Source: Melioribacteraceae bacterium (GTDB taxonomy: Bacteria; Bacteroidota; Ignavibacteria; Ignavibacteriales; Melioribacteraceae). From it: DNA of 64,000 nt. The stretch is taken from positions 62,001-126,000 of the forward strand of contig JAFGMI010000013.1 of assembly GCA_016927595.1 (NCBI GenBank), given 5' to 3'. Positions 3,931-15,927 of the stretch are shown piece by piece. How positions within the stretch are numbered: the first letter of the stretch is position 1; each line of letters starts with the position of its first letter. The translations under genes and the position numbers were made by a program. Under the pieces are notes generated by a model. That model did no database searches. It saw only the letters and a program-made list of their open reading frames with translations, and was not told the origin of the DNA.

Positions 3931-4385
3931 TATAAAAAATTATATATAGTTGCCCTGCTTAATATATGTGCTGCATGCGCATGCACATATTCGAAAAATT
4001 TCCTATGATATTGAGGTTTTTAATTTTCATAATAATTGGATGTGAATATAAGTTCGATATTTATCGGTGTCAAGTGGAAAATATAATTTATGAATTCTTA
4101 TTCATTCTTTAGAATTAAAATTTAGAACAACATACGAAATAATAGTCATTACCAATATAAGCGTTTCATCTCATTACAATAGTTATGGTTTTTAATGTAT
4201 TCGACCATTTACTTATCGATCAAAAAAAACACCTTACAGCATTGCCTCATTCTGGAAGAGATTGTCGAATGGATAGCAAAATGTTTAATTTGCGTCGGGT
4301 AATAAATGCTTGTTCAATATTTATGTGATTTTATGCAAGAATATGCGTTTAATTACATTTGTATAATCGGTAAAGTAAATTTAGC
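3931..4385. other. Gene-poor stretch between the divergent met and ilv operons
   Basis: I see no coding region or recognisable RNA gene in these 455 AT-rich bases. They hold an inverted repeat at 3964-3990 and a weaker second match to the -7 element, TACATTTG at 4354-4361. That match lacks a good TTG twenty bases before it. Confidence 0.5.
3964..3990. repeat. Inverted repeat, possible operator
   Basis: ATATGTGC (3964-3971) and GCACATAT (3983-3990) are perfect inverted arms around an 11-base centre that itself contains the palindrome ATGCGCAT. No T-run follows on either strand, so it does not look like a terminator. Its place between two divergent amino-acid operons makes a protein-binding site possible, but nothing identifies the protein. 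Confidence 0.4.
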
Positions 4386-4416
4386 TTGACAAAAGAAATC
4401 TGATGATTTAACTTTG
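4386..4416 (+). promoter_or_regulatory. Bacteroidota-type promoter of the ilv-leu operon
   Basis: TTGACA begins at 4386 and TAACTTTG lies at 4409-4416, with 20 bases between TTG and TA. This fits the known Bacteroidota primary sigma consensus (TTG, 19-21 bases, TAnnTTTG). Transcription would start near 4423, about a dozen bases before the leader-peptide ATG. The same spacing recurs before the UvrD/PcrA gene and asnS in this window. Confidence 0.8.
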
Positions 4417-4434
4417 CCGAAACTTATTTGCAAT

Positions 4435-4599
4435 ATGAAACGCACTCATAAATATATCATCGATAAAAATTACCGCAAACAACGGGAAAGCGTGCATATT
4501 GCTCAATTCAATACAGATATCATTCCTTCAAACAATATTATCATTCTAGGGATTATTGTTATTCTAAGCCTGCTGGGTCTTAATATCCTAGTGGGCTAA
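4435..4599 (+). CDS. ilv operon leader peptide rich in Ile, Leu and Val
   Basis: A 54-residue frame begins 12 bases after the predicted transcription start and ends 69 bases before the first possible ilvD start. Its last 22 residues hold seven Ile, six Leu and two Val, in runs such as NNIIILGIIVILSLLG. It begins MKRTHKYIIDKN and is otherwise charged. Concentrated codons for all three branched-chain amino acids just before the genes that make them are the known signature of ribosome-mediated attenuation leaders. The ATG has no clear Shine-Dalgarno site, as is common for leaders of this phylum. It could be mistaken for a small membrane protein because of its hydrophobic end, but its position argues strongly for a leader. 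Confidence 0.8.
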   Translation: MKRTHKYIIDKNYRKQRESVHIAQFNTDIIPSNNIIILGIIVILSLLGLNILVG

Positions 4600-4606
4600 A
4601 ATAGTA

Positions 4607-4663
4607 GTCAATCCCGAAACCATATCTTATTAATTTTATTAGAATTTCATTTTCGGGTTTGAC
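4607..4663 (+). promoter_or_regulatory. Long hairpin between the ilv leader peptide and ilvD
   Basis: GTCAATCCCGAAA (4607-4619) pairs with TTTCGGGTTTGAC (4651-4663) at 12 of 13 positions around a 31-base AT-rich loop. It begins seven bases after the leader stop codon, where an attenuator is expected. There is no U-run after it, so it may not be a simple intrinsic terminator. It may act on elongation or on ribosome access instead. GGGATT at 4549-4554, inside the Ile codons of the leader, could pair with AATCCC of the left arm as a competing structure. Confidence 0.6.
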
Positions 4664-4707
4664 CTGAAATGGAAATAGAATATCTGAATATTAAAAATGA
4701 GGTCAAT

Positions 4708-6417
4708 TTGAGATCGGATTTAATCAAAAAAGGATTTGAAAAAGCACCACACCGGAGCCTGCTCAAAGCTACCGGTGTAATAAGGAATGATGAGGATTTT
4801 AATAAACCTTTCATCGGTATATGCAATTCATATATCGATTTGATTCCCGGGCATGTTCATCTGCAGGAGTTCGGAAGAGTGGTTAAAGAAGCTGTAAGGG
4901 AAGCCGGAGGAGTTCCATTTGAATTTAATACTATCGGGGTAGACGACGGCATAGCCATGGGTCATATTGGAATGCGCTATTCACTTGCAAGCAGAGAACT
5001 TATTGCAGACAGCGTTGAAACAGTTGTGGAAGCTCACAGGCTCGACGGGATGATATGTATTCCTAACTGTGATAAAATTGTACCAGGTATGCTGATGGCT
5101 GCAGCACGCGTGGATATTCCTACAATATTTGTTTCCGGCGGACCGATGAAAGCCGGTATAACAGCTTCGGGCGAAAAAAGTGATTTGATTTCGGTATTTG
5201 AGGGAGTTGGTAAATACAGAAGCGGCGAAATTTCGGAAGAACAGCTTAAACACCTTGAGGACGTTAGCTGTCCGACCTGCGGCTCATGTTCAGGTATGTT
5301 TACCGCCAACTCGATGAATTGTTTAATGGAAGCATTAGGATTGGCATTGCCAGGTAATGGTTCAATTCTTGCCGTCGACTCAAAAAGACTTGAACTTGCC
5401 AAACAAGCCGCTCACCAGCTTCTCTATCTTGTTAAAAACGATATAAAGCCTTCGAAAATAATTACAAGACAGTCATTCAGAAATGCCTTTGCACTGGATA
5501 TGGCTATGGGAGGGAGTACGAACACAATACTACACGCTCTTGCAATAGCCATTGAAGCAGGTTTTGAATTTGACCTTAACGAGCTTAATGAGATTTCGGC
5601 AAGTACACCATATATATGTAAAGTAAGTCCCGCTACAAAATATGTTCATATGGAGGATGTAGATAAAGCCGGAGGTATCTCCGCGATACTTAATGAATTG
5701 TCGAAAGTTGACGGAGTGCTTGATCTTTCGTGCCTGACGGTAACGGGAAAAACACTTGGCGAAAATGTTTCAGGTCATGAAATAAAAAATGATAAAGTTA
5801 TAAGGAAGGTCGACAACGCTTTCTCAAAAACCGGCGGGCTTGCGGTTCTGTTCGGTAATCTTGCACCCGATGGAGCTGTTGTTAAGACGGGTGCCGTTGA
5901 TAAAGATATGCTCGTGCATAAAGGTCCTGCCAGAGTTTATAATTCACAGGACGAGGCTATGAACGGAATTATGAACAAAGAGATTCAGCCCGGTGATGTT
6001 GTTATTATCAGGTACGAAGGTCCTCAGGGTGGACCCGGTATGCCCGAAATGCTTGCGCCCACCAGCGCTATTATGGGTCTTGGACTGGGCGACAAAGTAG
6101 CTTTACTTACTGACGGGCGTTTCTCCGGGGGTACGCGCGGTGCATGTATCGGTCATGTTTCACCTGAAGCCGCAGAACGAGGTCCTATTGCGGCGTTAAT
6201 TGATGGTGATATTATTTCGATTGATATACCCGGCAGAAGTTTGAATGTTGAACTTACGGATGAAGAGATCGGAAAAAGAATAAACTCGTTATCTGCATTC
6301 GAGCCTAAAATCAAGAAAGGTTATCTGGGCAGATATTCAAGAATGGTAACTTCGGCAAATAAAGGAGCAGTTTTAAGAATACTAGAAATTAAACAATATA
6401 GAGAGGAAATATCATGA
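4708..6417 (+). CDS. ilvD: Dihydroxy-acid dehydratase IlvD
   Basis: An iron-sulfur dehydratase that turns dihydroxyisovalerate and dihydroxymethylvalerate into the keto acid precursors of Val/Leu and Ile. Cluster cysteines are seen in [11 protein letters not shown] and in [19 protein letters not shown]. The C-terminal [23 protein letters not shown] is characteristic. I place the start at TTG 4708. It has GAGG five bases upstream, and translation from it gives [18 protein letters not shown], the usual family N-terminus. An in-frame ATG at 4669 would add 13 residues, lacks a ribosome site and lies five bases after the leader hairpin. It is the first structural gene of the operon and overlaps ilvB by four bases (ATGA). 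Confidence 0.95.
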
Positions 6418-8132
6418 GTACGCCAAAAACAAGAATGAGCGGCGCTGATATATTTTTTGAGTGCCTTAAACGTGAGGGGGTAGAAGTTATTTTCGGTTAT
6501 CCCGGTGGGGCTGTGTTGAAAATTTATGAAAAGCTCTACGATATAGACTGGTTGAATCATGTGCATGTTCGGCATGAACAGGGAGCAACCCATGCGGCAG
6601 AAGGTTATGCCAAAGCTACCGGAAAGGTAGGATGCGTACTTGTGACATCGGGACCCGGTGCAACAAATACTGTTACCGGTATAGCCGACGCTTATATGGA
6701 CTCTGTACCGATAGTTGTTTTTACCGGGCAGGTTCCGTCCCATTTAATCGGTAACGATGCATTTCAGGAAGCCGATATCGTAGGTATAACCAGACCGATC
6801 ACCAAACATAATTTTCTCGTCAGGGATATTAACGAACTTGCTCCGACTATAAAAAAAGCATTCTATATTGCATCCACAGGGAGACCAGGTCCGGTAGTTG
6901 TTGATTTGCCAAAAGATGTTATTCTTGCCGAAACCGAATTTGAATATCCCGAGGATGTTGAAATCAGGGGTTACAAACCGAAATACAAAGGTCACTTCAA
7001 TCAGATTAAAAAAGCCGCTGATGTAATATCCAAAGCTAAACGTCCTTTGCTTTATGTTGGTGGCGGTGTCATAATGAGCGGCGGTTCAAAAGAATTAACA
7101 CTCCTTGCTTTGGAGAATAACCTGCCGGTCACAATGACGCTTCAGGGATTGGGCGCTTTCCCCGGTACTGATAGTCATTCGCTTGGAATGCTGGGAATGC
7201 ACGGCACTTACTGGGCTAATCAGGCTGTTAACAACTGCGATGTTATAGTTTCGTTAGGTGCTCGGTTTGACGATCGTGTGACAGGCAAGATAGATACCTT
7301 CGCACAAAAAGCATATAAGATTCATGTCGATATTGATCCGACTGCCATAGATAAAAACGTAGTGGTGGATCTGCCGATAGTCGGTGATGTCAAGAATGTA
7401 ATGGCGGAAATAGCGGCAGAAATAACTAAAAAGCCTAAAATTGACGAGTGGTGGAATCAAATAAATAAATGGAAAGAGGAATGTCCGCTGTACTATGAAA
7501 AAGATGACGGCAAATTAAGGACTGAGTACGTGTTTGAACGCTTGTCTGAAAAGACAAACGGAAACGCGGTAATCGTAACCGATGTCGGACAACATCAGAT
7601 GTGGGCTGCTCAATATTATAAATATACAAATCCGAGATCGAACCTTACCAGCGGCGGACTAGGTACAATGGGTTTTTCACTGCCGGCTTCTATAGGAGCG
7701 TGGTTCGGTGTGAAAGATCGTCCTGTAATCTCGATTAGCGGAGACGGGGGATTCCAAATGAATATACAGGAACTTATCACTGCAAAAGCATATAATGTAT
7801 CTGTTAAATTTATTATTATTAATAACAGCTTTCTCGGTATGGTCCGGCAGTGGCAGGAGCTATTCCATCAGGAAAAATATAGTTTCACCGATCTCAGTAT
7901 AAGTAATCCTGATTTTGTTAAAATAGGTGAAGCGCTGGGAATACCCTCCTACTCAACAGATAAACCGGAGGATGTTGATGGATTAATCGACCTGGTTCTG
8001 GCAAAAACAGACGGACCTTCTTTGGTCGAGTTCAAAGTTGTTAAGGAAGATATGGTGTTCCCGATGGTTCCTTCGGGAGCTTCAATATCTGACATGATGG
8101 TTAAAAGATTAAACCCAAGCAGGATGACATAA
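6414..8132 (+). CDS. ilvB: Acetolactate synthase, large (catalytic) subunit IlvB
   Basis: A thiamine-diphosphate enzyme of 572 residues that joins two pyruvates, or pyruvate and 2-ketobutyrate, in the first common step of Val/Leu/Ile synthesis. The N-terminal [15 protein letters not shown] and the [16 protein letters not shown] segment carry the activating Glu near residue 56. The C-terminal [14 protein letters not shown] with [13 protein letters not shown] is the ThDP/Mg binding motif. The RQWQELF region matches the acetolactate synthase FAD-dependent type rather than the catabolic one. GAGAGGAAA lies just before the ATG. Feedback control is expected through IlvN, encoded two bases downstream. 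Confidence 0.95.
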
Positions 8133-8133
8133 A

Positions 8134-8649
8134 ATGAAACATACAATTACAGTTCTGGTAGAAAATAAGTTCGGGGCTTTCGACCGCGTGGCTACAATGT
8201 TCAGCGGTAAAGGCTTCAACATTCACAGCATCTCAATCGGGGAAACCGAAATCTCTGAAGTTTCCAGAATGACGATAGTAACAGAAGGTGATGACAAAAT
8301 TATTGATCAGGTTGTTAAACAGCTCAACAGGCTGATTGATACAATAAAAGTTATCGATTTAACCGGATCATATCATATCGAACGTGAGCTGATGCTTATC
8401 ACCGTAGCATATCAGAAGGGTTCGATGGAAGAAATAAAAAATATATGTGATATTTTCCGGGGTAAGATTGTGGATATAAACAATAAAACAATGATGATAG
8501 AAATTACCGGACCGCCTGCAAAAGTTGATGCAGCGGTAAATGTTTTAGCCCCATTCGGGATAAAGGAAATGGCGCGCTCGGGAACGGTTGCATTGAGACG
8601 TGGCGAGCAGGTGAAAGCATCAAAAAAAGAATATGTTCTAACAAACTGA
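8134..8649 (+). CDS. ilvN: Acetolactate synthase, small (regulatory) subunit IlvN
   Basis: A 171-residue regulatory subunit with an N-terminal ACT domain (HTITVLVENKFGAFDRVATMFSGKGFNIHSISIGETE, residues about 2-38 and onward) and a C-terminal half typical of the longer IlvH-type subunits. It binds the catalytic subunit and confers valine feedback inhibition in known homologues. It begins one base after the ilvB stop, so the two are probably translationally coupled. The C-terminus around KEMARSGTVALRRG is conserved in the family. Confidence 0.93.
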   Translation: MKHTITVLVENKFGAFDRVATMFSGKGFNIHSISIGETEISEVSRMTIVTEGDDKIIDQVVKQLNRLIDTIKVIDLTGSYHIERELMLITVAYQKGSMEEIKNICDIFRGKIVDINNKTMMIEITGPPAKVDAAVNVLAPFGIKEMARSGTVALRRGEQVKASKKEYVLTN

Positions 8650-8658
8650 GGAAAATAA

Positions 8659-9669
8659 ATGAAAGTATATTATGATAATGACGCATCACTTGATCTCTTA
8701 AAAGATAAGAAAATAGCCGTGCTTGGATTTGGCAGTCAGGGACATGCACATTCACTCAATCTTAAGGACAGCGGAATGAATGTATGTGTCGGTTTGCGAT
8801 CTACAAGTGCTTCGGTTCAGAAAGCAAGGAACGCAGGTGTAGAAGTAAAGGAAATCGACGAAGCATGCGATTGGGCAGATGTAATAATGGTGCTACTCCC
8901 GGATCAGCATCAGAAAAAAATTTACGATGAGTTAATAGATCCTAATCTTAAGGAAGGCAATACACTCGCATTTGCTCACGGTTTTAATATTCATTATGGA
9001 CAGATTAAACCGCCGTCAAATGTTGACGTAATGATGATTGCTCCCAAGAGTCCCGGACATCTTGTGCGCCGTACATATAAAGAAGGCAACGGTGTGCCAT
9101 GCCTCATTGCAGTCCATCAGGACTTTTCCGGTCAAACAAAAGATCTGGCACTCGCTTGGGCAAAAGGAATAGGCGGAACTAAAGCAGGTGTAATCGAGAC
9201 AACATTTAAAGATGAAACCGAAACTGATTTATTCGGCGAACAGGCTGTACTGTGCGGAGGTTCTGCCGAATTGATAAAAACAGGTTTTGAAGTTTTGACC
9301 GAAGCCGGTTATCCGCCGGAGCTGGCGTATTTTGAATGTATGCATGAGCTTAAACTTATTGTCGATTTGTATTATGAAGGCGGACTGAGCAGAATGAATT
9401 ATTCTGTCAGTGATACTGCCGAATACGGCGGAATGACAAGAGGTCCGAGAGTTGTGACCCAGGCTGCCAAAGAAGAAATGAAAAAGATACTCAAGGAAGT
9501 ACAGGACGGCAGCTTCGCGAAAGAATGGATTGAAGAGAATGAGAAAGGTCAGCCTAATCTTGATAAACTGCGCAGACAGAACAGGGAACATACAATTGAA
9601 ACAGTAGGTGAAAAACTGCGCGGTATGATGAGCTGGCTGCTGAATAAAAATAAAAAAGAAGAGGTATAA
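8659..9669 (+). CDS. ilvC: Ketol-acid reductoisomerase IlvC
   Basis: A class I (short) enzyme of 336 residues that isomerises and reduces acetolactate or acetohydroxybutyrate. The Rossmann motif [13 protein letters not shown] begins near residue 24. The cofactor-selecting loop reads [11 protein letters not shown], whose Arg and Ser residues suggest NADPH. The knotted C-terminal domain holds the metal ligands in [14 protein letters not shown] near residue 190, followed by [22 protein letters not shown] precedes the ATG. Its position between ilvN and leuB is the usual order in this group. Confidence 0.95.
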
Positions 9670-9671
9670 AG

Positions 9672-10769
9672 ATGACCTATAGAATCACGTTGTTACCGGG
9701 TGATGGTATAGGACCGGAAGTCGTTTCCGCAGCTCTTAAAGTAATGAACTTTGTTGCTGAAAAATTTAATGTGTCTATCCAGACTCAGGAAAGATTAATC
9801 GGCGGCTGCTCATACGATAAATTCGGCTCACCTCTGACCGACGAAGCACTGCAAACCTGCTATGACTCAGATGCGGTTCTTCTCGGTGCCGTTGGCGGTT
9901 ATAAATGGGAAAATCTGCCGCATAATCTTAAGCCTGAAGCAGCTCTCCTTAAGCTGCGTAAATCATTGGGTCTTTATACGAATATAAGACCGGCAAAAGT
10001 ATATTCGGCATTTGTTGATTCTTCATCACTTAAAAGTGAAATTCTTGCAGGGACTGACTTCGTTGTCTTCCGCGAACTTACCGGGGGAATTTACTTCGGC
10101 GAACCGAGAGGTTTTGATGAAGAAAAAGGCTGGAATACAATGGTCTATACAAAAGAAGAAGTGGAACGGATTGCTCATATGGCATTCAAAACTGCCGGAC
10201 ATCGTAAAGGTGTAGTTACAAGTGTTGATAAAGCAAATGTTCTCGAATGTTCTCAGTTCTGGCGAAACGTTGTTGAAGAAGTAGCCGGGTCGTATTCTTC
10301 AGTTACATTAAAACATATGTATGTCGATAACGCTGCAATGCAGATTGTGAGAGATCCCAAACAGTTCGATGTAATCCTGACGGGAAATATTTTCGGCGAT
10401 ATTATCAGCGACATTGCGGGGATGATTACCGGTAGTCTCGGAATGCTTCCTTCGGCAAGCCTGGGAAGTAAGTATGCTTTATATGAGCCCGTTCACGGCA
10501 GTGCTCCCGATATCGCCGGACAAAACAAAGCAAACCCGATTGCAGCCATATCTTCAGTAGCTATGATGTTCGAGCATTCCTTCGGTATGACAAAAGCTGC
10601 GGAGCTTATAGAAACATCAATCGATAAAACACTCAGCCAGGGTTACAGAACCGCTGATATCGCGAGGAAAGGCGACAATATAGTCGACACGGAAAAAATC
10701 ACGAGCTTAATAATTCAGAACATCGAATCGATTTATAATGAGCAGGCGCTGGGGGTTTTTACTCTATAA
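9672..10769 (+). CDS. leuB: 3-Isopropylmalate dehydrogenase LeuB
   Basis: A 365-residue member of the isocitrate/isopropylmalate dehydrogenase family that oxidatively decarboxylates 3-isopropylmalate in leucine synthesis. It begins with the LLPGDGIGPEVV motif. It has the substrate loop around LRKSLGLYTNIRPAKVY, the catalytic SVDKANVLE segment, and the NAD-binding EPVHGSAPDIAGQNKANPIA region. With cimA in the same operon, the same enzyme is likely to act on the 3-methylmalate intermediate of the citramalate route. GAGG lies just before the ATG, two bases after ilvC. Confidence 0.95.
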   Translation: MTYRITLLPGDGIGPEVVSAALKVMNFVAEKFNVSIQTQERLIGGCSYDKFGSPLTDEALQTCYDSDAVLLGAVGGYKWENLPHNLKPEAALLKLRKSLGLYTNIRPAKVYSAFVDSSSLKSEILAGTDFVVFRELTGGIYFGEPRGFDEEKGWNTMVYTKEEVERIAHMAFKTAGHRKGVVTSVDKANVLECSQFWRNVVEEVAGSYSSVTLKHMYVDNAAMQIVRDPKQFDVILTGNIFGDIISDIAGMITGSLGMLPSASLGSKYALYEPVHGSAPDIAGQNKANPIAAISSVAMMFEHSFGMTKAAELIETSIDKTLSQGYRTADIARKGDNIVDTEKITSLIIQNIESIYNEQALGVFTL

Positions 10770-10814
10770 CTGAAATGAATATTTGTGATTGAAACATTAT
10801 GCGAGGAAGAATTA

Positions 10815-12395
10815 ATGTCTCAAAAAATAATAATCTTTGATACAACTCTGAGAGATGGCGAGCAGTCTCCCGGTGCATCATTAAACGTGATGGAAAAAGT
10901 TGAAATTGCAAAACAGCTTGAAAAGTTAAGAGTTGATGTTATCGAAGCTGGCTTTCCCGTATCATCACCGGCACAGTTTGAAGCTGTAAAAAGAATATCG
11001 GGTGAAGTCGGGATAATAGTCGCTGCACTTGCCCGTGCGAAGGAAGTTGATATTAAGGCTGCATGGGATGCAATTAAGGAAGCTCAGAAAAAACGAATCC
11101 ATACTTTCTCTAGCACTTCAGATTATCATATAATCGGAAAATTCGCGCATGAACGTTATGGAAAGAACCTTGAAGAAAAAAGAGCTACTATTCTGAAAAT
11201 GTCTTACGATATGGTTAAGTATGCGAAATCTCTATGTGAAGATGTGGAGTTTTCGGCAGAAGATGCCGGTCGTACCGATCTTGCCTATCTGGCTGAAGTT
11301 GTAGAAGCAGCAATCGAAGCGGGAGCTACAACGATTAATATTCCTGATACAACCGGATATACTGTACCTTTCGAATTCGGTGAAAAGATTGCAGAACTGA
11401 AAAGACGCGTCAGCAATATAGATAAAGCAGTTATTAGCGTTCATTGTCATAACGATCTTGGACTTGCCGTAGCGAATTCAATTGCAGGTATAGAAAACGG
11501 TGCCCGCCAGGTTGAATGTACAATAAACGGTATTGGCGAAAGAGCCGGCAACGCCTCCCTCGAAGAAATTGTGATGGCATTAAATGTCCGCAAAGACCTG
11601 TTTAAATTTTCTACCGGGATAAACACCAGTGAAATTTATAATACCAGCCGGATGGTATCGGGATTTACGGGAATAATCGTGCAGCCAAATAAAGCTGTAG
11701 TTGGAGAGAACGCTTTCGCACATGAGTCAGGTATTCATCAGGACGGTATGCTTAAGAACAGGGAAACCTACGAGATAATGACTCCCGATTCTGTGGGTGT
11801 CAACAAAACGAAAATTATTTTAGGACGTCATTCAGGTCGCCACGGTCTTAAAGCACGTTTAATAGAACTTGGCTATACGATTGATGAAAAGGAACTTAAC
11901 AGAGTTTATGAGCGGTTCACTAAACTTGCAGATAAAAAGAAAGAAGTGTTCGATGATGACCTGCGCATTCTTATGGGAGATGAAGTCTTTACCGAGTCGA
12001 CCCATTATATATTGGATTACATGCAGGTAAATTCAGGAACAGGATCAATCCCTACTGCAACGGTGAGAATAAAGCGTAATGATAAAGAATTGTCGGATTC
12101 TGCAACGGGAGACGGTCCGGTTGATGCTCTGTTCAATGCGATTGACCGCGCGCTGGGAATTGAATCTCTTATAGAATCTTATCGTGTCCGTTCGGTTACA
12201 TCAGGCAGGCAGGCGCTTGGCGAAGTTTCTGTCAGAATCAGATCGCACGCACATTCCTTTACAGGTCGGGGTGTCTCTACCGATATTATTGAAGCGAGTG
12301 CTAAAGCATATCTCTCAGCGATAAATCAGAATGAGATATATCAGCTCGAAGCGAAAACATTGAACGCAAATGAGAAAATTACAGAAGCGATTTAA
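10815..12395 (+). CDS. leuA: 2-Isopropylmalate synthase LeuA
   Basis: Condenses acetyl-CoA with 2-ketoisovalerate, the committed step of leucine synthesis. The 526-residue protein begins [20 protein letters not shown]; the DTTLRDG motif and [14 protein letters not shown] carry metal and substrate residues. A LeuA-type regulatory dimer domain covers roughly residues 390-515 and is the expected site of leucine feedback inhibition. I place the start at ATG 10815, which has GAGGAAG about six bases upstream. A GTG at 10785 would add ten residues of unlikely sequence. It is distinct from cimA in the same operon, so leucine and isoleucine branches have separate synthases. Confidence 0.94.
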
Positions 12396-12408
12396 GGAGA
12401 AGCGCTAA

Positions 12409-13710
12409 ATGGGTATGACTATTACTGAAAAAATACTGGCAAAAGCAGCAGGCAAACGCAATGTAAATCCTGGTGAAAATATATGGCTTAACGTGGATGT
12501 ATTAATGACACATGATGTTTGTGGTCCACCTACTATCGGAATTTGGAAACGCGAATTCGGAAAGAGCGCAAAAATATGGGATAAGAATAAACTTGTGATA
12601 TTTCCCGACCACTACATTTTTACTGCCGATAAATATGCGAACCGAAATGTGGAAATACTCAGAGAGTTTGCCAGAGATTATGAAGTTGAAAACTATTACG
12701 ATGTAGGAACGGAAAGATATAAAGGAGTTTGCCATCTTGCACTGGCTGAAGAGGGATACAATATACCGGGTACCGTATTGTTCGGAACCGACTCGCATAC
12801 ATGTACCTCGGGTGCTTTCGGTATGTTCGCTACTGGTGTTGGTAATACAGATGCTGCATTTATACTTGGCACGGGAAAAATCTGGGAAAAAGTCCCGGAA
12901 TCTATAAAGTTTATATTCAATGGAAATCTTCCAAAATATTTAACGGCTAAAGATCTTATCCTTCACATTCTCGGTGATATAACAACCGACGGTGCCACTT
13001 ACCGTGCGATGGAATTTGACGGTGAAGCTGTCTTTAGTCTTTCTATGGATGAAAGAATGACTTTAACGAATATGGCGATTGAAGCAGGCGGAATGAACGG
13101 AATAATAAAAGCCGATGCAATTACTGAGGCTTATGTTAAAGAGCGGTCCGATAAATCATATGAAATTTTTGAGAGCGATAACTACGCTGAATATTTTGCA
13201 GTTTATGATTACGATGCATCTAAACTTGAGCCAACCGTTGCGAAACCCCACAGTCCCGATAACCGGGATCTAGTAAGAAACGTATCGGGAACGGAATTGA
13301 CAAAGTGCTATATAGGTTCGTGTACCGGTGGAAAATTACCCGACTTCCGGTTTGCAGCACAGATATTATTCGGCAACACAGTTAAAGTCCCCACATTTAT
13401 TGTTCCGGCAAGCACTAAAGTTGCACGACTGCTTGAAGTTGAAACTTACAACGGTCTGACCCTTAAAGAAATATTTGATAAGGCGGGTTGTCAGATAGGG
13501 CAGTCATCGTGCGCCGCCTGTCTCGGAGGTCCCGATGATACATTCGGCAGGGCGAAAGATAAGGATGTTGTAATATCGACAACAAATAGAAATTTTCCGG
13601 GCAGAATGGGGAGCAAGAAATCCGAAGTTTATCTTGCCTCACCATTAACAGTGGCGGCTTCGGCAGTTACCGGAGTTATTACTGATCCAAGAGATTTTAT
13701 TAATGATTAA
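12409..13710 (+). CDS. leuC: 3-Isopropylmalate (and probably citramalate) dehydratase, large subunit LeuC
   Basis: An aconitase-family [4Fe-4S] subunit of 433 residues, similar in length to the compact LeuC/HacA-type proteins. Cluster cysteines are seen in CYIGSCTGG near residue 301 and in the SSCAACLGG segment near residue 367. The FGTDSHTCTSGAFGMFATGVG motif is the usual substrate and cluster region. It pairs with LeuD. As the window has both leuA and cimA but only one leuCD pair, this enzyme probably serves leucine and isoleucine routes alike. TAAGGAG lies before the ATG. Confidence 0.92.
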   Translation: MGMTITEKILAKAAGKRNVNPGENIWLNVDVLMTHDVCGPPTIGIWKREFGKSAKIWDKNKLVIFPDHYIFTADKYANRNVEILREFARDYEVENYYDVGTERYKGVCHLALAEEGYNIPGTVLFGTDSHTCTSGAFGMFATGVGNTDAAFILGTGKIWEKVPESIKFIFNGNLPKYLTAKDLILHILGDITTDGATYRAMEFDGEAVFSLSMDERMTLTNMAIEAGGMNGIIKADAITEAYVKERSDKSYEIFESDNYAEYFAVYDYDASKLEPTVAKPHSPDNRDLVRNVSGTELTKCYIGSCTGGKLPDFRFAAQILFGNTVKVPTFIVPASTKVARLLEVETYNGLTLKEIFDKAGCQIGQSSCAACLGGPDDTFGRAKDKDVVISTTNRNFPGRMGSKKSEVYLASPLTVAASAVTGVITDPRDFIND

Positions 13711-13740
13711 TCAGACAAACCAATAACCATCGAGGATGAA

Positions 13741-14301
13741 ATGGAAAAAGTATTAAACGGAAAAGCATATGTTCTTGGTAATAATATAGATACAGATCAG
13801 ATTATACCGGCTGAGCATCTTGTATACAGTTTAACGGATGAGGATGAATCAAAAAAGTATGGTCATTTTGCTTTATCGAGCGTGCCGATAGAAAAAGCAG
13901 GTCTTCCGGAAGGTGGTGTTTCCTTCATCGAGGGTGATAATTGGCAGTCCGAGTTTACTATCATAATCGGCGGTTCTAATTTCGGTTGCGGTTCCTCCCG
14001 AGAACACGCTCCTTTTGCATTACAGAAGGCAGGTGTAAAAGCAATTATTGCAGAATCTTATGCAAGAATTTTCTACAGGAATTCGGTTGACGGGGGCTTT
14101 TTAATCCCTTATGAAACTGTAGACAAGTTGATCGATAAAATAAAAACCGGTGACCAACTGGAACTTGATCTGGAAAATAATATTCTGAAGAATTTAACAA
14201 AAGAGGAAGTACATCATCTAAAACCGCTCGGCGAAGTACTGCCGATTGTTGAAGCCGGTGGTTTGTTTAATTATGCACGTAAATCCGCAATGATTTTGTA
14301 A
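13741..14301 (+). CDS. leuD: 3-Isopropylmalate (and probably citramalate) dehydratase, small subunit LeuD
   Basis: The 186-residue swivelling small subunit of the isopropylmalate isomerase. NNIDTDQIIPAEHL opens the protein, and GGSNFGCGSSREHAPFAL near residue 80 is the substrate-binding loop. GAGG precedes the ATG, 30 bases after leuC. The YLRT-type substrate loop of LeuD is replaced here by EHLVYSLTDED, which may reflect use of more than one substrate; that is an inference. Confidence 0.92.
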   Translation: MEKVLNGKAYVLGNNIDTDQIIPAEHLVYSLTDEDESKKYGHFALSSVPIEKAGLPEGGVSFIEGDNWQSEFTIIIGGSNFGCGSSREHAPFALQKAGVKAIIAESYARIFYRNSVDGGFLIPYETVDKLIDKIKTGDQLELDLENNILKNLTKEEVHHLKPLGEVLPIVEAGGLFNYARKSAMIL

Positions 14302-14319
14302 TTTAAAAACGAGTACAAA

Positions 14320-15927
14320 ATGACTGATTCAAGAATAATTGAATTATTCGATACAACATTAAGAGACGGCACTCAGGGTGAAGGTGTCAATCTGTCAATC
14401 ACCGATAAGTTATTAATCACTGAAAGGCTCGACGATTTCGGTATCGATATTATCGAAGGTGGCTGGCCCGGCAGCAATCCTAAGGACGAAGAGTATTTTC
14501 AAAAGGTGAAATCTCGTAAATTAAAGAATGCCCGTATAACAGCATTCGGATCAACTGCCAGATTCCCTGATAAAATTGAGAGCGATAACAATTTAAATAA
14601 ACTTGTCCGGGCTGAAACACCGTATGTGTCTATTTTCGGTAAGACCTGGCGGTTCCATTCGAAGGAAAGTCTCGGATTAAGCGATGACGAAAATGCAGAA
14701 CTGATTTTTGGATCGGTAAAATATCTAAGCGATAAAGGAATAAACGTAATATTTGATGCCGAGCATTTCTTCGACGGTTATAAAGATGATCCGCAGTTTG
14801 CCATTAAAATGCTGCAAGCCGCCGAATCGGGAGGTGCGCTTACTCTCGTTCTATGCGATACTAATGGCGGTTCATTGCCCAGCGAAATTAAAACAATAAC
14901 CACCGAGGTTGCAAAATATGTCTGCAAACCTCTAGGTATACACTGCCATAACGACAGCGAGCTTGGTGTAGCCAACAGTCTGGCGGCAATTGAAGCGGGC
15001 GCACTGCATGTACAGGGTACAATAAACGGCGTGGGCGAGCGTTGCGGGAACGCCAACCTCTGCAGTATTATTCCTAACCTGCTTCTTAAGATGAACTTGC
15101 AGACAAAAACAAAAATAAATCTGGACCATCTTACATCACTTTCAAACTATGTATTCGAACTTATGAATCTTGTACCGCACAGCAGGGCTGCATTTGTCGG
15201 GAAATCGGCTTTCGCGCATAAGGGCGGAATACATGTAAGTTCGGTTCTGAAAAACAGTAAGATGTACGAACATATCGAGCCGGTGATTGTGGGCAACCAG
15301 CAGAGAGTAATAGTATCCGACCTTTCCGGGCAGAGTAACATCAGATACAAAGCTAAGGAACTTGGGATTGAACTTCCTGACAAAACAGAGTTCAGTAAGA
15401 ATTTTGTTTCCAGTATCAAAGCGCTGGAGTATGAAGGATTCCAGTTTGACGGGGCTGAAGCCTCTTTCGAGCTTCTTCTTAGAGACGAGCTGGGTGAACT
15501 GAGCAAGTATTTTGAAATAACATACGCAAAAATAAACGTAATGTTCGATGATAATGGCAACGAGTATTCGGAAGCTGTTCTGAAAGTTGTTGTTGACGGT
15601 GTGGAAGAGCATACAGCGGCTGACGGTCATGGTCCCGTTAATGCTCTTGATAATGCACTTCGGAAAGCACTCACACGTTTTTATCCCGAAATCAGCAGGA
15701 TTCATCTGGTAGATTATAAAGTACGCGTACTCGGCGACAGGGATGGCACTGCTGCAAAAGTGAGAGTTCTTATAGAATCAAGTGATGGCGAGCTGACCTG
15801 GTCAACCGTTGGTGTTTCGGAAAATATAATAATAGCCAGTCTGCAGGCTATTACAGATTCTATTAATTATAAATTATTAAACTCCAAGCACGCGGAAAAA
15901 AATACTGAAAAAATTTCCATGCCTTAA
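14320..15927 (+). CDS. cimA: (R)-Citramalate synthase CimA
   Basis: A 535-residue HMGL-like enzyme that condenses pyruvate and acetyl-CoA to citramalate, giving 2-ketobutyrate for isoleucine without threonine deaminase. It has the family features that separate it from Leu[18 protein letters not shown] at the start, IIEGGWPGSNPKDEEYF, FGKTWRFHSKESLG, and FDAEHFFDGYKDDP. The metal motif is GIHCHNDSELGVANS. A C-terminal LeuA-type allosteric domain (about residues 390-525) is present and is the likely site of isoleucine feedback. It is the last gene of the ilv-leu operon, 18 bases after leuD. No ilvA is present in the window. Confidence 0.92.
   Translation: MTDSRIIELFDTTLRDGTQGEGVNLSITDKLLITERLDDFGIDIIEGGWPGSNPKDEEYFQKVKSRKLKNARITAFGSTARFPDKIESDNNLNKLVRAETPYVSIFGKTWRFHSKESLGLSDDENAELIFGSVKYLSDKGINVIFDAEHFFDGYKDDPQFAIKMLQAAESGGALTLVLCDTNGGSLPSEIKTITTEVAKYVCKPLGIHCHNDSELGVANSLAAIEAGALHVQGTINGVGERCGNANLCSIIPNLLLKMNLQTKTKINLDHLTSLSNYVFELMNLVPHSRAAFVGKSAFAHKGGIHVSSVLKNSKMYEHIEPVIVGNQQRVIVSDLSGQSNIRYKAKELGIELPDKTEFSKNFVSSIKALEYEGFQFDGAEASFELLLRDELGELSKYFEITYAKINVMFDDNGNEYSEAVLKVVVDGVEEHTAADGHGPVNALDNALRKALTRFYPEISRIHLVDYKVRVLGDRDGTAAKVRVLIESSDGELTWSTVGVSENIIIASLQAITDSINYKLLNSKHAEKNTEKISMP

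Follow-up and report, generated by a model that had tools for sequence, protein, structure and literature searches.

A predicted Ile/Leu/Val leader-peptide attenuator that appears to work without a transcription terminator upstream of ilvD in a Melioribacteraceae bacterium

In the enteric ilvGMEDA (ilvL) and leu (leuL) attenuators, an Ile/Leu/Val-rich leader peptide precedes a branched-chain operon and is coupled to mutually exclusive helices 1:2, 2:3 and 3:4, the last of which is followed by a U-run, the defining trait of these systems. Rare CUA codons are used in leuL. In translational attenuators of the ermC type, exclusive helices also operate, and a ribosome stalled on the leader frees the start site of the downstream gene. 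The LEU element of the Actinobacteria, a conserved pseudoknot before leuA in which the Leu codons of the leader pair to the ribosome binding site, provides the closest precedent for a branched-chain leader that reaches a ribosome binding site (PMC1262725). The ilvB-II motif of Corynebacterium consists of a conserved upstream frame with branched-chain codons and alternative helices; its terminator stem carries a U-run, and its peptide has 15-17 residues (PMC10272879). According to a 2010 survey, which added the Firmicutes, leader-peptide systems were then known only in the Proteobacteria and Actinobacteria, apart from ermC (PMC2965389). Our literature search, in which journal coverage was incomplete, returned no description of such a leader in the Ignavibacteria or Bacteroidota.

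The locus considered here lies in a 64,000-nucleotide stretch of the genome of a Melioribacteraceae bacterium (Bacteroidota; Ignavibacteria), referred to as the window (Table 1). It shares with the enteric ilv and leu attenuators the Ile/Leu/Val-rich leader, the three exclusive helices, the rare CUA codons (as in leuL) and the branched-chain operon downstream, but differs in that the U-run after 3:4 was looked for in the window and is missing. Its peptide is longer (54 residues), most of its Ile/Leu/Val codons follow arm 1 and precede the stop codon, and it occurs in another phylum with unrelated sequence. With the LEU element it shares branched-chain leader codons and may share RNA pairing into the first gene's ribosome binding site, although the LEU element, by its published description, is a pseudoknot before leuA (PMC1262725), whereas the layout in the window is four-armed and precedes ilvD. 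The conserved frame, branched-chain codons and alternative helices are common to ilvB-II as well, which differs by its U-run terminator and its short peptide. The likeness to ermC-type systems would lie in the freeing of a start by a stalled ribosome via exclusive helices; the signal, however, is an antibiotic there and would be amino-acid shortage here, and the 3:4 hairpin in the window ends 31 nt before the start. In kind the predicted switch is a known one; no earlier description was found for this group of bacteria, and the switch apparently operates with no transcription terminator of the usual type.

Table 1. Features of the ilvD leader region and operon (window positions)
Feature	Position	Strand	Remark
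Promoter TTGACA + 17 bases + TAACTT	4386-4391, 4409-4414	+	layout recurs in 36/36 loci scanned
Predicted leader peptide frame, 54 codons + stop	4435-4599	+	Ile/Leu/Val-rich end
Arm 1 (AGGGATTATTGTTATT), within frame	4548-4563	+	pairs with arm 2 at 4600-4615; minimum-energy fold of 4541-4730
Hairpin in the end of the frame (AGCCTGCTGGG / CCTAGTGGGCT), nested in 1:2	4567-4597	+	minimum-energy fold
Arm 2, directly 3' of stop codon	4600-4620	+	partner is arm 1 or arm 3
Arm 3 (TTTTCGGGTTTGACC)	4650-4664	+	partner is arm 2 (2:3) or arm 4
3:4 hairpin (arm 3 + arm 4), terminator position, without U-run	4644-4676	+	z -3.0
Likely ilvD ribosome binding site GAGG and TTG start (4708)	4699-4710	+	homology from RSD
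ilvD, ilvB, ilvN, ilvC, leuB, leuA, leuC, leuD, cimA	4708-15927	+	family matches

The promoter, the peptide frame and the nine-gene ilv-leu set proposed in an earlier, sequence-only reading of this DNA all stood up to comparison. A TTGACA or TTGACT promoter with a spacer of 17 nt (18 once) to the -10 element, lying a short way upstream of the leader start, was present at every locus scanned, and all nine genes match their families, their common strand and short gaps making them a putative operon. The predicted peptide (MKRTHKYIIDKNYRKQRESVHIAQFNTDIIPSNNIIILGIIVILSLLGLNILVG) ends in NIIILGIIVILSLLGLNILVG, in which Ile, Leu and Val make up 15 of the 22 final residues. Against the window's Ile/Leu/Val background of 0.24, the probability of at least 15 in 22 is 1.5e-5, and a frame with such an end arose in only 2 of 3000 shuffles of 4051-4708. 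Codon choice in the last 20 leader codons is biased as well: CUA, the rarest Leu codon of the window, supplies 52% of Leu codons vs 4.3% in the window's genes, AUU supplies 84% of Ile codons vs 45%, with AUA avoided, and GUG supplies 40% of Val codons vs 13%. RNA arms that share those bases may account for part of this bias.

The ilvD-class set comprised 28 loci with an upstream region, namely the window and 27 relatives, the ilvD starts of two of which (L018 and L025) were re-anchored. All 28 carry a short frame with 14-17 Ile/Leu/Val among its last 22 codons as well as the leader hairpin, and the leader stop lies 108-138 nt upstream of ilvD. Alignment of the region upstream of ilvD in relatives, proposed in the sequence-only reading as a check, showed both conserved Ile/Leu/Val runs and the compensatory hairpin changes described below. 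A protein search by itself retrieves only the closest leaders. The groups delivered by the genome search are labelled f1 to f39, f1 being that of the window. Upstream of ilvD, further leaders were found in f4 as well as in other families of this phylum, and in the Calditrichota and Marinimicrobia; none was found in three f8 loci (L138-L140) or in most of the loci examined that carry the other ilvD class. In the window, the ilvD start is probably TTG 4708 rather than ATG 4669, because homology begins at 'RSD' and GAGG stands just ahead.

The RNA of the leader is strongly structured (folding z = -4.4 vs shuffles), and Rfam contains no family scoring above its gathering threshold at 4380-4760. 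The hairpin described in the sequence-only reading does exist (4606-4620 with 4650-4664; z = -2.8), and no U-run follows it, as had been stated; its role was misread, since its position and the competition for its arms make it the middle helix, 2:3, in the antiterminator position. It is flanked by two further exclusive helices that had been missed, 1:2 and 3:4; the terminator position is taken by the 3:4 hairpin of Table 1, which is followed by AGAATATCTGAATATT, again without a U-run. A role of 2:3 as terminator was rejected on account of its loop of some 30 nt in the window, the missing U-run and the availability to arm 3 of another, tight partner. A further promoter, using the TTGAC of arm 3, was likewise rejected, the spacing to a -10 element not being conserved by eye. 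Repeats comparable to the hairpin at 4567-4597 are seen by eye in close relatives.

Side-by-side comparison of relatives gave consensus sequences of CUAGGGAUU for arm 1, within Leu-Gly-Ile codons, of GGUCAAUCCC(U/G)AA for arm 2, at most about 10 nt from the stop codon, of UU(A/C)GGGAUUGACC for arm 3, and of CCCGAA or similar for arm 4, just 3' of arm 3. Arms 1 and 3 are alike because arm 2 is the partner of both, and arms 2 and 4 are alike because arm 3 is the partner of both. Where arm 2 reads AAUUCC, arm 1 reads GGAAUU (L002, L010, L012), and AUACCG in arm 2 is matched by CGGUAU in arm 1 (L006). Family f4 has the identical layout in unrelated sequence, with AGCCUC or GGCCUC in arm 1 and GAGGCU or GAGGCC in arm 2; its five loci, being few and closely similar, do not suffice for the partner-swap test, in which arms were exchanged between 39 loci in 20000 permutations. 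In that test a locus's own arms paired better than swapped arms for 1:2 (-12.4 vs -10.0), for 2:3 (-20.5 vs -16.6) and, anchored on arm 3, for 3:4 (-8.7 vs -6.8, with control windows farther downstream at about -3.6 to -4.2), and in each case 0 of 20000 permutations were as good. Pair counts were made on 37 distinct rows with slid and shuffled controls, in blocks anchored on the consensus motifs, which leans the counts towards pairing. Helix 2:3 was 85% paired, 9 of its 13 pairs had changed on both sides, and its 36 double-change cells stood against 17 +/- 2.8 in shuffled versions and far above slid versions; helix 1:2 was 87.5% paired, with 15 double-change cells against 8.9 +/- 2.5 (4 of 500 shuffles as high). 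Helices 1:2, 2:3 and 3:4 are mutually exclusive and backed by covariation, and one of them overlaps the leader frame.

The dependence of these helices on translation was modelled by treating the ribosome as a 29-nt unpairable stretch. In the empty window RNA, P(1:2) was 0.95 and P(2:3) 0.02. With the A site 14-19 codons before the stop, P(2:3) was 0.83-0.96; from there to two codons before the stop it was mixed (0.19-0.93), and with the ribosome at the stop it was 0.00. The Ile/Leu/Val cluster coincides with the positions at which a ribosome would cover arm 1. In the window RNA, as modelled, ribosome position decides the choice of helix. Averaged over the relatives, P(2:3) was 0.76 in empty RNA and 0.31 with a ribosome at the stop, so that folding kinetics must be invoked for them.

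Comparison and calculation thus support the frame and its codon choice, as well as the three mutually exclusive helices and, in the model, their dependence on the ribosome. Attenuation-type control by a leader peptide, as originally suggested, gains strong support from conservation, biased codons and covariation, and we are highly confident that the leader is an attenuator that raises expression of the branched-chain amino acid genes on shortage of Ile, Leu or Val. The signal sensed would be charged Ile-, Leu- and Val-tRNA. In well-fed cells, or on untranslated RNA, arm 1 would pair with arm 2 and arm 3 with arm 4, and the operon would be off. On starvation, we infer, a ribosome halted on Ile/Leu/Val codons would cover arm 1, allowing arm 2 to capture arm 3, so that 3:4 could not form and the operon would be on. 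A ribosome reaching the stop codon would cover arm 2, in which case 2:3 would fail and the operon would be off. The final step would be reduced initiation of ilvD translation, extending to the operon by polarity, rather than termination of transcription; the departure from textbook attenuation that had been raised as a possibility is supported insofar as no U-run follows. The reading as a whole, an Ile/Leu/Val-tRNA-sensing attenuator with four-arm logic, no intrinsic terminator and a translational output, we consider probable by a modest measure.

It is very improbable that the frame instead encodes a functional small membrane protein whose Ile/Leu/Val end is merely its membrane helix. The final 20 residues are indeed hydrophobic enough for such a helix, but the hydrophobic part is composed almost exclusively of Ile, Leu and Val, with a strong preference for the rare CUA, and the bases of the frame covary with bases past its stop. 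The peptide matches no protein family, and its first half is unrelated between close genera, only an end of a form like 'SLDIxxLGIIIILSLLGIxxLVG' being kept. Moreover, the homologous leaders of family f24 (L151-L161) end in Val/Ile/His runs such as VSVPLVHVRIIVA, with interruptions by His, Arg and Pro. Equally remote is a role of the inverted repeat GGTCAATCCC...GGGATTGACC as a DNA operator bound by a regulator. Its sequence is well conserved, and nearly all pattern-matching relatives have a single site per genome, as might suit an operator; however, the spacing of the arms varies widely among loci, G-U pairs are retained (UG in 15 of 37 at one pair of 2:3), arm 1 covaries too although it lies within the reading frame, and f4 keeps the same pairing in unrelated sequence.

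A more serious rival accepts the leader-peptide switch but takes its output to be premature termination at or after 3:4 without a U-run, whether Rho-dependent or pause-assisted. The f24 leaders, in which a U-run follows 3:4 at 10 of 11 loci, read as classical transcription attenuators within the same phylum, and, by eye, a long loop low in G, resembling Rho loading sites, separates arms 2 and 3. Yet the window lacks a U-run, while a SAM riboswitch only 1 kb away is followed by a hairpin and U-run, and ordinary terminators are therefore in use in this genome. In families f38 and f39, where the U-run is absent at all five loci, only 5-18 nt separate the end of the 3:4 hairpin from the ilvD start, a short space in which to terminate before the gene is reached. 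At L149 the distance is 12 nt, again without a U-run. In Ignavibacteria-type loci the corresponding distance is a median of 37 nt, and five T in 8 nt occur in 8 of 37 loci, in AT-rich sequence. All five f4 loci reach five T in 8 nt after 3:4, and their arm 3 is able to base-pair over a stretch spanning the ilvD binding site and its ATG. In 17 of 39 loci, the sequence flanking arm 3 shows better-than-chance pairing with the opening codons of ilvD, and own pairing beats swapped pairing (0 of 20000 permutations; p 0.025 for the test window at +20 nt and 0.25 at +40 nt). In the Melioribacteraceae window, however, the modelled cost of opening the ilvD start is 5.1 kcal/mol with arm 3 free and 3.5 with arm 3 captured; because a shuffled arm 3 gives 5.0, blockade of the start lacks specific support there, a point in favour of termination. 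Base-pair probabilities revealed no clear difference in Shine-Dalgarno exposure with vs without arm 3. The idea that arm 3 blocks the ribosome binding site in general was rejected, the accessibility calculation being not significant over all loci (p 0.09) while positive singly, e.g. at L010, L016, L023, L137, L146 and L149; start-site blockade is therefore retained only as the favoured account of the final step. Reinitiation after the leader stop (cf. PMC4833913) was considered, but in the window TTG 4708 lies 108 nt beyond that stop. Taken as a whole, the evidence on output favours ilvD translation initiation, which is probably what is controlled here, and leaves U-run-less termination as a serious rival of lower, but appreciable, probability.

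Because the switch is conserved in several families, it offers a natural comparison of output wiring: the same sensing module would act through termination in one lineage and, probably, through translation in a second. If the translational reading is true, a biosynthetic operon would here be under translational attenuation that senses amino acids. We tentatively suggest, with a little less than even confidence, that one ancestral branched-chain switch kept its arms across the Bacteroidota and beyond while its output changed: one family would use a U-run terminator, others a hairpin placed at the start of ilvD, and the Ignavibacteria an arm 3 reaching into the ilvD start and first codons.

Several further observations were made at related loci. 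In L003, L008, L011, L018, L019 and L137, a short inverted repeat, CTGAAG...TTCAG, lies between arm 4 and ilvD, immediately next to the AGG of the ilvD ribosome binding site; in L008 it shows an apparent compensatory change (CTAA/TTAG). Two genomes assigned to genus g50 (L172, L173) carry the motif and leader ahead of ilvB, ilvD being absent from the interval. L172 (1334-1776) has, in addition, a second frame of 57 codons that starts with GUGAGAUCU, like the start of ilvD, and ends in NINIIIILSIIILSI, which is Ile/Leu-rich; this is a possible tandem leader, and such a leader-over-leader arrangement, a single case, would fit a translational output. A recurrent short frame with a different end, of the form MNxLFSLSLIVVVLAVLIIKDQFSVRMATVRVK, precedes ilvD in Anaerolineales of the Chloroflexi (L097, L098, L103, L112, L124 and others) and is likely another branched-chain leader. 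At L030, a 23-residue frame (MKNFSLINIILLIIVIIIPGYWE) about 120-190 bases upstream of the other ilvD class is possibly an independently evolved leader.

The neighbouring SAM riboswitch (RF00162, 77.5 bits) occupies 3874-3756 on the minus strand of the window, about 1 kb from the leader, and its canonical terminator lies at 3729-3696; judging names by eye, the genes after it are O-acetylhomoserine-sulfhydrylase-like and metX-like. Upstream of it on the same strand, the region 4073-3909 contains a promoter-like TTGACA-17-TATATT (11/12) and a terminator-like hairpin with TTTTTATTAA (3927-3909), and perhaps yields a short separate RNA of about 110-130 nt.
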